Assembly (NCBI GenBank): GCA_003023365.1
Contig: PXTG01000068.1
Span: 1 to 43,080, forward strand
Reading direction: 5' to 3'
DNA from: Bacteroidetes bacterium QH_7_62_13
GTDB lineage: Bacteria; Bacteroidota; Rhodothermia; Rhodothermales; Salinibacteraceae
DNA: 43,080 bases
The notes under the pieces were generated by a model. The model saw nothing but the letters and a program-made list of their open reading frames with translations. It did no database searches and had not been told where the DNA came from. The translations under genes and the position numbers were made by a program. Positions 4,053 to 9,384 of the stretch are shown piece after piece (the stretch's first letter is position 1; every line of letters begins with the position of its first letter).

Positions 4053-5162
4053 CTACCTATTCGTTTTTTCGTTTATAAAAGAATAATGGAGAATGTGAGG
4101 GCCATCTGGTCTGTGACGAAGTACGTACAAGTACTTATCGTTGACGGCAATCTTACGGGCAGCTGTGGGAAGCTGAATCTCGTACGCGAAGGCCCCCTCC
4201 TCTCGATCATAAACGTGAAGATGAGTTGATCGCTCTGTTTGGGCCGAAAGCTCGGCCTGCTTCGTTGAAGTGAGCCGACCCGAAAGATCAAGTGTCCGAA
4301 CCTTCGAACGGGAAACGTGCTTGCCTGAAAAGAGGGAGTAGATATGCGAGCTATCGCATGCTAGATCGAGAGTCCCTTTCGGGTTGAACCAGTTCGGAAG
4401 ACGAGCTTGGCCCTCCTGGACAGGAAAGGGCACGGAAGTGGGGGGCTCCAGTACGTCGATCGTATCCTTCCTGGCCCGAATCAGGAAGGACGAAAATTCG
4501 AATCCTACGATCACAGAGCCTCCGCAAGACGCTGAGGGGCCATACCTCAAGGCGTAGTTTTGACCGACAGGTTCAAATTTCTTGGAGGTGCCGGCAGAAT
4601 AGGCTCGTTGTACTGCGTCTGGACGAGTTCCCTCGATACGGGCTTGGGACCGTTGGAGGGGCCGTATGTCTACGACGCGATCACCAACGCGAGGCACAGT
4701 GACGAGGAGTGAGTCTTTCACAGGGAGGGTCCGCATCGACCCGGAAATCGTGATATCCTCGAGTGTATTCAGGGCTGCGTCGAAAATCGTAACGCGCCCC
4801 TGCTGGCGATCGTGGAGCCAGATTCGTCTACCGCTGAGGGGGGCTAAGAAGTAGGCGCTCTCATCACGAATTTGACCTGGTCCCTGCCCAATGCCCGTTC
4901 CCGAAGAAAGGGTTCCGACGCTGGTGCTATACCTGTGTAGGCCGTTTAAAGACCAATCTATAAAGTAGAGGGCAGTATCGGTTGGGGACATTAAACTCCT
5001 TGGGTTGCCGAGGCCACCGATGCTGTCGGTTCTCTGTAGGAGAGAATCGCCCCGTATCACTTTCCAATCCCCTTCAACTGTTGTCTCTGTTTCGTCACAT
5101 CCGACCAACGTCGAAACGAGAAGAATGAAAAGGCAGAATCGTGTTCGTGAGGCGTTAGCCAT
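4053..5162 (-). CDS. 6-bladed beta-propeller lipoprotein, divergent
   Basis: 369 residues with a lipoprotein signal ending in LVGC near residue 22. It has the propeller loop in the form GIGQGPGQIRDE, and blade-like segments (DTALYFIDWSLNGLHRYS, RIWLHDRQQGRVTIFD, KYLYVLRHRPDG). It lacks the ELNPTPDNRKIGIY C-terminus, so it belongs to a different subfamily from the 1837, 7134 and 8254 genes. It is isolated by an IS5-type element downstream (2958-3892) and an IS200/IS605-like element upstream (about 5258-5749). Beyond the latter lies a small peptide gene (5818-6069) on the same strand that may have been its upstream partner. Ligand unknown. Confidence 0.8.
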   Translation of the reverse strand: MANASRTRFCLFILLVSTLVGCDETETTVEGDWKVIRGDSLLQRTDSIGGLGNPRSLMSPTDTALYFIDWSLNGLHRYSTSVGTLSSGTGIGQGPGQIRDESAYFLAPLSGRRIWLHDRQQGRVTIFDAALNTLEDITISGSMRTLPVKDSLLVTVPRVGDRVVDIRPLQRSQARIEGTRPDAVQRAYSAGTSKKFEPVGQNYALRYGPSASCGGSVIVGFEFSSFLIRARKDTIDVLEPPTSVPFPVQEGQARLPNWFNPKGTLDLACDSSHIYSLFSGKHVSRSKVRTLDLSGRLTSTKQAELSAQTERSTHLHVYDREEGAFAYEIQLPTAARKIAVNDKYLYVLRHRPDGPHILHYSFINEKTNR

Positions 5163-5257
5163 CGGAGGTTAATACTTTTTCGAGGAAACTGGCTCGGGGC
5201 AATAAATCTCTCCGAGACGGGCTCTGGTTAGATTATTGAGTAGAGCGCGAGAAGAGC

Positions 5258-5749
5258 TATAAACCCTCCGGTTTCAACCGGGGGATATGAACCTGTCGGT
5301 TCTGGACTCTTCTCGCCCAGCAGGACGGAGTGAACCGGAAACACGGTTGGCTCCAGTCTGTGCATATACACGCAGTTCTTTGACGTGGTAAACGGTTGGC
5401 TCCCAAAGCCCTGGGAGCTTGGTAAAACCACACAGGCATTTGCCCAGAGGGCTGGTAGGCAAGCGGCAATGTGAAAGCGTTCAGCGTTTTCCGACCGCGC
5501 CGAAAAATAGGTTCTCTCGAAGGAGAGGACGTACCAAAGCCTCGGCCCAATGAACTGACAGGTTCAAAGAGCAGGAAGTATGTCGGGCACGAACCGACAG
5601 GTTCTATGACCCGTCTACCTGGTGTCATGGCTTCACCCTCTGTATTGAGCATCAAATGCAGTGTAACTCGCGGAGCAGCGACCTCTGCATGTCAAGTCGC
5701 TGTGTCGAACGCGAAGAATCTCCCGGCTTCAGCCGGGGGAGAAGTCAAG
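5258..5749 (+). mobile_element. IS200/IS605-like non-autonomous element with omega-RNA-like 3' end
   Basis: The stretch is bounded by two palindromes in the same orientation: CCGGTTTCAACCGG at 5268-5281, and the stem around CCCGGCTTCAGCCGGG (5719-5742) followed by GAAGTCAAG. Subterminal palindromes without inverted terminal repeats, and a right end of the form GAAGAATC...GGGGAGAAGTCAA, are typical of IS200/IS605 elements and of the omega RNA of TnpB. No TnpA, TnpB or IscB coding sequence is recognisable inside in any frame. It contains three 14-bp repeats (5289, 5552, 5591) and a small hairpin at about 5515-5528. The plus orientation is preferred because of the right end, but not proven; exact tips are approximate. 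Confidence 0.42.
5289..5604. repeat. Three copies of a 14-bp repeat GAACCTGTCGGTTC
   Basis: GAACCTGTCGGTTC is at 5289-5302. Its exact reverse complement GAACCGACAGGTTC is at 5591-5604, and a one-mismatch copy GAACTGACAGGTTC is at 5552-5565. The first and last can pair in an RNA spanning the element; each is also nearly palindromic in itself. All three lie inside the IS200/IS605-like element. Confidence 0.75.
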
Positions 5750-5817
5750 ATCCAGTCAATGCTATTTACCTTATACTTTCGTTGCCACACCCTTTACACT
5801 TGCGGGTAGTGGGACCT

Positions 5818-7133: not shown

Positions 7134-8246
7134 CTACGGCCAGTTTACCTCGTAGATGCCGATCTTGCGGTTATCCGGCGTTGGATTGAGCTCCACGTAG
7201 AGCCGGTCCTTTTCGTCCCGGGCAAGAACGGGACCGGGGAGCGAAAGGGGAAGTCTCTCGTCGGAATCGATCGTTCCCAAGGTAGCGAAGTGCTCCTGCT
7301 CAGACGGTTTAAATTCGGTCTGTTTATAGTACCCTTTAGTGTGATTGGCAAAGACCTGCACCACGATGTCATCTTGAAGCAGCATCGTTTCCTCTACGAT
7401 GTCGTAATTGGCCAACCGTTCGTATAATTCATCATCTATCGCAATGTCTAGTGGTGTCTCCTCTTGGGGAGGGCGAAAGTCAGGATGATCGAACGACAGC
7501 GTTTGTAGATGCGGATCGCCCTGTCTGGTAAGATCATACAATTGGACGTTCGGGACGAGCCGATACCCCACCGCCGCGAGCGAGTCGGCCCGAAGGTCCA
7601 TGGTTCGCTGCTGTGAATAGTACTCCCCGTCCCGATACAGCGAGGGAAACGTTCCAAACGTCTCTTCGACTTCAAACGTGTCGTTCAGTGTTGCAACCGT
7701 GTTTTCGCCGGACGGAACCCGTAGGCTACCCATTCTCTGAGGGCTAAAGCTGGTGACCGGCATTACGTATCCGTCTCGGATCTGGAAAAGATCGTATCCC
7801 CCCACATAGTGCTCGCCGGGCAGGCGATGGTCGTCGATGGGCGTGCCAGATGTGTCGAACACCGAGAACCCCCGCCAGCGCCGTTGAGCGACGACAACGC
7901 GATCTTCGTCAACCGACAGAAAGATGGGACGGCCAAGTTCTCCCGGGCCTCTGCCTGCTTCTCCGATAAAATGGTCAATCGAGCCGTCGGCCGTGATCAC
8001 GGCGATACGCTGCATCTTCCGGTCGGCCACGTAGATGCGAAGCGGATCGAGTTCGATGTCAGCGTCGGCGAGCTCACCAATAAACCGTTCATCTGTCTCT
8101 TGTATCTCAACGGTATCGACCTGTTCGAGGGCAGCCGTCTCGTCGAGAGATGTGACCTCGGACCCCGACGGGCCGGAGGAGCAACCGGTTGTGAGGAGGA
8201 TTCCCATCACCAGAGAAACAGTGAGGCTGCAGCCGATTGGTCGCAT
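7134..8246 (-). CDS. 6-bladed beta-propeller lipoprotein, signature subfamily
   Basis: 370 residues with a lipoprotein signal (LLTTGC, Cys near residue 22). Mature part: TVEIQETDERFIGELADADI, PLRIYVADRKMQRIAVI, the loop GEAGRGPGEL, and the C-terminal signature ELNPTPDNRKIGIY followed by EVNWP. It aligns along its whole length with the 8254 gene and clearly with the 1837 gene (shared ETFGTFPSLY/TLY, AVGYRLVP, VQLYD, YERLA), so it is a tandem duplicate. Its ATG is 7 bp after the stop of the 8254 gene, so the two are almost certainly one transcript. The ligand is unknown. Confidence 0.87.
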   Translation of the reverse strand: MRPIGCSLTVSLVMGILLTTGCSSGPSGSEVTSLDETAALEQVDTVEIQETDERFIGELADADIELDPLRIYVADRKMQRIAVITADGSIDHFIGEAGRGPGELGRPIFLSVDEDRVVVAQRRWRGFSVFDTSGTPIDDHRLPGEHYVGGYDLFQIRDGYVMPVTSFSPQRMGSLRVPSGENTVATLNDTFEVEETFGTFPSLYRDGEYYSQQRTMDLRADSLAAVGYRLVPNVQLYDLTRQGDPHLQTLSFDHPDFRPPQEETPLDIAIDDELYERLANYDIVEETMLLQDDIVVQVFANHTKGYYKQTEFKPSEQEHFATLGTIDSDERLPLSLPGPVLARDEKDRLYVELNPTPDNRKIGIYEVNWP

Positions 8247-8253
8247 GACTCTG

Positions 8254-9384
8254 TTAGTCGTTGGTCCGGGCCGACGACGGCCACTTCACCTCATAGATAC
8301 CGATCTTGCGGTTGTCCGGTGTCGGGTTGAGCTCAACATACAGCCGATCGTTCTCGTCGTGGGCAAGAACACCTCCCGGCAGCTTAAGGTGCAAACGGGT
8401 GTTCGCGTCTACTTTTCCAAGGATAGCGTAGTGGGTCTGCTCTTCTTCGTCGAATTTGCTCTCATAGAACGCTTTGGTCTGGTTCGCAAATGCATGGACG
8501 AAAATCCCTTCTTCGAACAGAGCGGTGTATTCGACCCCAGAGACCTCTGCCAACCGTTCGTATAGCTCGTCTTCTTCTCTTGCGATCTCCATTGGGATCT
8601 CTTCCTTTGGAACCTGAAATTTAGGATGAGACAGAGAGAGGGTCTTTCTCTGTTTGACCTCCTTCGGGCCTATGTCGTACAACTGGATGTCGGGAACGAG
8701 TCGGTATCCAACGGCCAAAGTAGAGTCACCGGCAACGTCCGCAGTGCGCTGGCGAGCAGCGTACTCTCCTTCTTGATACAGGGTCGGAAACGTTCCGAAT
8801 GTCTCTACAATCTGGAAATTCCTGTTGACTGCTGCGATGGTTGCTTGCTCCGCTGAGGCTTGTACGCCGTGCTCGCGAGGATCTACGCTCGTGAGTGGCA
8901 GAAGATAGCCGTTGTCGATTGCGTGCATTGAAGAATACATCCCCTCGAACCAATTGCCGGCGGGAAGATGATAGGTTTCCTTGTACGCTCCTGATCGGTC
9001 GAACACTTCAAATCCGGCTCGTTGTCCTTGGCGCACAATAGTGTAATCCTCACCAACGAGAACGTCCGATGGGCTTTGCAACTCACCGGGACCTTTTCCA
9101 GGGCGTCCAATCAACTTCTTGATCTCCCCGTCTCTTGAAACCACGGCCACCCTGCCCATCTCCCCATCAGTGATGTAGAGCCGGAACGGGTTTAGCTTGA
9201 CATCGACACCAGCGACCCGTCCAATGAACCGATCATCGGTCTCATGAATCTCTACGGAGTCGATCAGTTGGATGGCGCTCGTTTTGTTGAGAGGGACGAC
9301 ATCTGGGTCGCTGGCTCCGCACGCTGATAGAAGGAGAAAAAGTATAGATGTAAATAGGCAAATGTTTAGGGTTTTTGGAGGCAT
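8254..9384 (-). CDS. 6-bladed beta-propeller lipoprotein, signature subfamily
   Basis: 376 residues. Signal with lipobox LLSAC at about residue 22. It has the subfamily N-terminus (DSVEIHETDDRFIGRVAGVD, PFRLYITDGEMGRVAVV), the loop GRPGKGPGEL and the C-terminus ELNPTPDNRKIGIY then EVKWPSSARTND, slightly longer than its paralogues. First gene of a two-gene unit with 7134-8246. Upstream are a hairpin terminator (9412-9452) and a small membrane-peptide gene (9542-9736) on the same strand, so it is probably expressed by read-through from the peptide promoter or from a weak promoter of its own. Function beyond the propeller fold is unknown. Confidence 0.87.
   Translation of the reverse strand: MPPKTLNICLFTSILFLLLSACGASDPDVVPLNKTSAIQLIDSVEIHETDDRFIGRVAGVDVKLNPFRLYITDGEMGRVAVVSRDGEIKKLIGRPGKGPGELQSPSDVLVGEDYTIVRQGQRAGFEVFDRSGAYKETYHLPAGNWFEGMYSSMHAIDNGYLLPLTSVDPREHGVQASAEQATIAAVNRNFQIVETFGTFPTLYQEGEYAARQRTADVAGDSTLAVGYRLVPDIQLYDIGPKEVKQRKTLSLSHPKFQVPKEEIPMEIAREEDELYERLAEVSGVEYTALFEEGIFVHAFANQTKAFYESKFDEEEQTHYAILGKVDANTRLHLKLPGGVLAHDENDRLYVELNPTPDNRKIGIYEVKWPSSARTND

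Follow-up and report, generated by a model that had tools for sequence, protein, structure and literature searches.

How does an element without transposase genes move, and what does it carry where its relatives carry genes? The question is raised by a 517-bp stretch of a contig from Bacteroidetes bacterium QH_7_62_13, a salt-loving relative of Salinibacter, of which we analysed 43,080 nucleotides (hereafter the window). An earlier note on this DNA had proposed a transposase-less element similar to IS200/IS605. Judged by its sequence, the window element is a non-autonomous member of the IS200/IS605 group, i.e. a palindrome-associated transposable element (PATE), because the same ends flank tnpB in relatives, and both tnpA and tnpB in at least one of them. 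This kind of element is already known. The structured RNA core that we describe in its middle appears to be new.

Extent and type of the element

The note had set the element at 5258-5749. An element does lie there, but its ends are elsewhere: alignment with relatives and with a pair of copies from G002, another genome of the genus, gives 5232-5748 on the plus strand, with the left tip 26 bases further out and the right tip on TCAA. The two copies of this pair (L075 and L083, both gene-less) are alike exactly from TTAC to TCAA (494 columns, with 2 mismatches and 44 gap positions) and differ in their flanks, which fixes the tips. There is no target duplication, the homology between the two copies ending at the tips with no second TTAC. 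Among copies and relatives the left tip reads AGTATTGAG or a variant, after TTAG, TTAC or TTAT; copies C48 and G005C9 have ATAG instead of TTAN at this place. Right tips end in TCAA, except in C48 (TCAC). The target- or TAM-like tetranucleotide to the left of the window element is TTAG (5228-5231, plus strand). The left end (LE, 5247-5316, plus strand) contains an inverted repeat, is predicted to fold into a long imperfect hairpin around the subterminal palindrome CCTCCGGT/ACCGGGGG at 5265-5284, and resembles the left ends of tnpB-bearing relatives. Both subterminal palindromes of the earlier note are present, the right one being TCTCCCGGC/GCCGGGGGA at 5719-5740, and so is the right end (RE) that it had given as GAAGAATC...GAAGTCAA. 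Taken together, the 516 nt at 5245-5760 fold with a z of -7.15, as good a value as in none of 100 shuffles.

When 60 relatives were searched, scoring up to 10 candidates in each genome, matches turned up in at least 20 genomes (that of the window included), mostly to pieces of LE or RE. We read ten LE-RE pairs that lie 1.4-1.8 kb apart; six have a TnpB frame of at least 397 aa and four have shorter or broken frames. An element of G002 (L039, 337-2107) has a Y1 TnpA upstream of TnpB, as seen by eye and in Pfam matches (TnpA at G002:C1:266515, TnpB at 267739). At G007:C68 LE, TnpA and TnpB are followed by the first part of the tail, where the contig ends. G012:C90 (L035, about 620-2367) is of the IS605 type, with TnpA, a window-type RE and a tnpB apparently interrupted, presumably by a 260-residue frame that by eye resembles a homing endonuclease. 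Relatives share LE and RE around tnpB, or around tnpA and tnpB in G002, which supports the earlier reading of a transposase-less element of the IS200/IS605 group. The claim that frames for TnpB and TnpA are missing stood only in part: the genome of the window (2.07 Mb, 62% complete) has no match to TnpB (PF07282) or to Y1 TnpA (PF01797) at E<=0.001, but the element has kept a remnant of tnpB at 5573-5641.

The PATEs of Haloquadratum walsbyi are related to IS605-type transposons, have no transposase, carry palindromes near their termini and cause no target duplication; HqIRS71 keeps C-terminal tnpB sequence, and some others have been cut to 52 bp by repeat-mediated deletion (from part of PMC3119063). 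The likeness to our family includes the kept tnpB C-terminus and a counterpart of the 52-bp forms, a 60-bp copy in the genome of the window (G000:C114, L005 3261-3320) in which LE and RE are fused through two similar palindromes. In that part of PMC3119063 no conserved RNA core is described, whereas the window element has a core and a tail with covariation of the reRNA kind. Its genome holds a second full-length copy, C48, which is 69% identical to it.

The near-identity of L075 and L083 in different flanks points to recent movement or copying of gene-less relatives without genes of their own. G002, which carries this pair, also has TnpA. To the right of L075, sequence homologous to G011 starts directly after TCAA. 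Since G011 does not match L075 on the left side, the boundary is seen from one side only and does not amount to a full empty site. This copy also lies directly before a coding sequence (L075 1809 onwards), which it apparently interrupts and which we take to be like DUF433. As for the window copy, a search for its empty site matched the flanks in none of the 26 other family genomes. In searches of plasmids and phages, the window element matched a Salinibacter ruber plasmid with one piece of its left end, and no phage.

A tail resembling reRNA

In ISDra2 and IS608 an RNA tail is made of the 3' end of tnpB and the RE, takes its guide from the right flank and forms an reRNA of about 150 nt; the reRNA of TnpB is described in cis, being formed by the 3' end of the tnpB gene itself (from part of PMC8612924). 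The likeness to the elements of that account lies in LE, RE and the make-up of the RNA tail, with TTAC as the target of IS608 and TTAN here. The elements in the same part of PMC8612924 carry TnpA and TnpB, whereas the window element has neither gene and has an extra structured RNA upstream of the tail.

The tail of the window element (5573-5748, plus strand), delimited by its fold and by alignment A4 with relatives, aligns with their tnpB 3' end and RE. It starts with the tnpB remnant, RKYVGHEPTGSMTRLPGVMASPS (5573-5641, plus strand), 23 codons that match the TnpB C-terminus of relatives at E 1.6e-5 and 3.2e-5 (tblastn with 7 TnpB frames). The predicted structure, all on the plus strand, comprises a closing helix (5629-5634/5741-5746), a hairpin (5640-5661), a helix (5668-5672/5710-5714), a second hairpin (5675-5703) and the RE hairpin (5719-5740). 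The alignment has 11 sequences: four non-autonomous copies, one piece at a contig edge (G023) and six that adjoin a whole, partial or interrupted tnpB. The window structure pairs in 90.4% of cells over these copies. Doubly changed cells, with both sides of a pair altered and the pairing kept, number 19 versus 5.9 in shuffles, with none of 500 shuffles reaching this value and slid controls giving at most 9; further pair types are no more numerous than in shuffles (194 of 500). These compensatory changes bear out the suggestion that a guide-RNA scaffold is kept at the right end. In the window copy the main hairpin is intact in a variant of its own, GCAGCGAC/GTCGCTGT; in C48 one arm of the closing helix is gone. 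If the tail were used as an reRNA, the flank at 5749-5768 (plus strand) would be its guide, by analogy with the about 16-20 nt of ISDra2. By the same likeness, taken from part of PMC8612924, TTAG would serve as the TAM, with the guide taken from the bases that follow 5748.

We searched the element for known RNAs. HEARO, or IscB omega RNA, is a structured RNA within an IS200/IS605-like element. The window element likewise holds structured RNA, but with no Rfam match of that kind. In the covariance-model search proposed earlier, HEARO (which we take to be RF02033) and all other Rfam families stayed below the gathering score at the element; the sole match in the window at that score is a tRNA, outside the element. 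A permissive scan, with E up to 5, gave sub-threshold matches to eL15-Euryarchaeota (E 3) and, over the right end, to HgcC (E 0.24). HEARO, an IscB-type RNA or another known RNA was hence rejected as the identity of this RNA, and five other loci with the core described below gave no HEARO or omega-RNA match in Rfam.

A structured RNA core in tnpB-less elements

Between LE and tail, non-autonomous copies with different ends have a stretch in common that was not found in tnpB elements. It contains a conserved, multi-branched RNA core (5445-5552, plus strand), which is supported by covariation in 9 and in 20 sequences and by the covariance models R1 and R2. This core is the most unusual part of the element and had escaped the earlier note. 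The helices, again on the plus strand, are 5449-5454/5543-5548 and 5457-5460/5539-5542, then 5463-5466/5495-5498, 5473-5479/5485-5491 and 5511-5518/5523-5530. They include helices closing the multiloop, a near-invariant GCGG/CCGC helix and a hairpin with matched changes on its two sides. The stem sequence of the 8-bp hairpin differs in most copies and its loop is usually GAAG; the motifs CAAUGYG and ACCAAA (plus strand) are conserved and unpaired.

Nine copies aligned by sequence alone have 93.8% of their cells paired, and 41 cells are doubly changed versus 13.6 in shuffles (0 of 500 reach this value; slid controls at most 12). In 20 copies there are 83 doubly changed cells versus 27.5 (again 0 of 500), in an alignment that leans towards the model because it was fitted to it. 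The number of doubly changed pairs in these 20 copies is reached by 27 of 500 shuffles, and kinship among sequences can inflate all such counts of double changes. As to the strand, G-U cells outnumber A-C cells in the core (53 versus 15) and in the tail (35 versus 2); therefore the folded strand is the one in sense with tnpB. A further three-way junction (5387-5445, plus strand), predicted by RNAalifold from 6 copies and confined to window-type ones, is conserved and shows no compensatory changes; we do not claim it. Copy L083 lacks the ACCAAA motif and the hairpin matching 5511-5530 and is otherwise intact, so that neither would be strictly needed for movement, unless they were lost after insertion.

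Could the core be a remnant of tnpB coding sequence? The distance from AAGCGGCAATG to CCGACCGC ranges from 32 to 49 nt and takes all three remainders modulo 3 (20 of the 22 strong copies measured), so the core is not coding. Outside the C-terminal tail, tblastn with 7 TnpB frames gave only weak pieces, for instance WAY-like residues in G006 at an E of about 0.02. In tnpB elements, a profile of the element's middle part had no match below E 2.9. Of the 53 TnpB matches listed in family genomes, 30 tnpB loci were scanned with the core RNA model, with nothing below E 3, and the core was likewise absent from another scan of tnpB loci. It is not a usual part of tnpB elements by this RNA model. Given the length remainders and the lack of a convincing match to TnpB or to tnpB loci, we rejected a coding remnant. 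A promoter scan found no sigma-70-like promoter.

The covariance model built from 9 copies was run on 100 genomes, of which 12 gave 29 matches at E<=0.1. Counts below use the 22 strong ones (E<=1e-4), which come from 9 of the 100 genomes, all of the family; 7 matches above this threshold were left out, among them L078, which lies in protein-like sequence and looks false, and L087 and L097, which may be decayed true copies. Thirteen strong copies are outside the model, e.g. L075 (2.3e-22), L086 and L088 (4.6e-15), one of the 13 (G023C21) being already known as a truncated copy. An RE motif lies downstream of 17 of the 22, with 2 of the 5 misses at or near a contig end. An LE motif, short enough to occur by chance, lies upstream of 16, in three of them as a different motif (GATTRAAGG). 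At least one end motif is present in 20, and the other two (L091 and G023C21) have a variant left tip by eye. Within 700 bases on each side of the 22 cores, the longest TnpB match is an 89-aa C-terminal part; the tblastn used 29 automatically picked frames, of which that of L107 is probably not TnpB. The match near the core of G012C79 is a 25-aa piece of the 5' leader of its frame. Farther off, at 1.2 kb from the core at G002:299983, there is a partial TnpB match (G002:C1:301249) on the other strand and beyond the tips of the core's element.

In GTDB species genomes, a pattern scan picked up 7 core stretches from Salinibacter, Salinivenus or Bacteroidetes MAGs, all on contigs that match family genomes in length, namely G005, G006, G012, G017, G023 (two) and G025. 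A scan of the phylum found the core in 3 of 395 drawn genomes, all of the window's own genus, a weak negative given 9 candidates scored per genome. Two pattern scans of IMG/VR found no core, and a search with the L075 element found none in plasmids or phages. In the open-access literature we found no report of such an RNA in Salinibacter elements; other journals may hold work on TnpB or PATEs. The core is thus a candidate RNA family absent from Rfam 15.

TnpB is present in 13 of 27 family genomes and TnpA in 14. TnpB occurs in 5 of the 9 genomes that hold strong cores (G002, G005, G012, G017 and G018), and all of these except G017 also have TnpA. G006, which is 99% complete, has a core copy and neither gene; the genome of the window, G023 and G025 (56-62% complete) have strong cores and no match to TnpB or TnpA. 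In G010, which has 6 TnpB matches, neither TnpA nor the core was matched.

How core and tail might be used

We think it probable that the window element is a PATE mobilised in trans, whose core, reRNA tail and flank guide form an RNA working with a TnpB from elsewhere. That the tail is part of a composite guide RNA is moderately supported, and the mechanism that we infer around it would run as follows. A Y1 TnpA supplied in trans would excise the element and insert it as single-stranded DNA beside TTAG. The sense strand would be transcribed as one RNA made of the core, the reRNA tail and about 16-20 nt of the right flank. The TnpB of an autonomous element would bind this RNA and cut the restored empty site, and the element would then be copied back. 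The core, kept instead of tnpB, would most likely be the 5' domain of the trans-acting guide RNA, with a role in stability, at the 5' end or in protein binding; such a domain might be needed because the RNA no longer derives from the tnpB mRNA. Several of the above results are at odds with a guide acting in trans, namely the lack of TnpA and TnpB matches in the element's own incomplete genome and in core-bearing G006, the lack of TnpA in G017, the empty promoter scan, the losses in the core of L083 and in the closing helix of C48, the TCAC end of C48, the lack of an empty site for the window copy, the fit of the 20-copy alignment to the model, and the 27 of 500 shuffles.

Alternatively, the element might be an ordinary PATE, left in decay after deletions in a tnpB element and moved because its ends are intact, with tail and core as passive passengers. 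In Haloquadratum, some PATEs keep C-terminal tnpB sequence and others consist of the termini only, in 52 bp (from part of PMC3119063), the 60-bp copy at C114 consists of LE and RE, and L083 is otherwise intact despite the loss of part of its core. Yet, the core does not look tnpB-derived, either to its RNA model in the 30 tnpB loci or in the profile search, and many double changes keep its helices between copies, which is not expected of neutral passengers; we thus consider this explanation unlikely. It is somewhat harder still to believe that the core acts as folded single-stranded DNA in peel-and-paste transposition, and not as RNA. IS200/IS605 elements do move as single strands (from part of PMC8612924), and wobble pairs on the sense strand cannot tell RNA from top-strand DNA. 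But the core is about 200 bases from either end and its conserved unpaired motifs look like contacts of RNA or protein. In addition, predicted folding weakly favours RNA over DNA, with z -3.52 under RNA parameters (5446-5545) versus -1.15, little better than shuffles, under DNA parameters on the slightly different stretch 5445-5552. Finally, the core might have no relation to TnpB and be a captured regulatory RNA of the host or of other origin, such as a terminator or an element that confers stability. The absence of detectable sequence common to the core and tnpB elements agrees with such an origin, but the core has no Rfam match, no host locus is among the strong matches, and nearly all strong copies lie near an element-end motif, with variant left tips by eye in the remaining two. 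This makes a captured RNA very improbable.

With a covarying RNA domain that was found in tnpB-less elements only, beside a kept reRNA tail, the core-bearing elements offer a natural test of whether non-autonomous elements use TnpB in trans, and of what else a trans guide RNA needs. We would suggest, tentatively and with more doubt than confidence, that a nuclease-less IS605 lineage of Salinibacteraceae evolved its own composite guide RNA. Its new 5' domain would have replaced tnpB, spread between TTAG, TTAC and compact types, and let these parasites exploit TnpB and TnpA made by others, perhaps with altered specificity or in competition with the parent guide RNA.

Some smaller features of the window deserve mention. 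A short palindrome, GAACCTGTCGGTTC/GAACCGACAGGTTC, recurs in these elements (in the window at 5289-5302, 5552-5566 and 5591-5604) and also occurs at 4563-4572; within the TnpB tail it is read in frame, as EPTGS, and a part of it lies in the gene at 4053-5162 (FEPVG). The sequence ACCTGTCGGT occurs 16 times in the genome of the window versus 3 for its reversed control. The palindrome resembles a small dispersed palindromic repeat. Around the element, the frames at 666-1766, 1837-2928, 7134-8246 and 8254-9384, all on the minus strand, encode proteins of similar size (363-376 aa), most with lipoprotein-like starts and three of the four with ELNPTPDNRKIGIY near their end.
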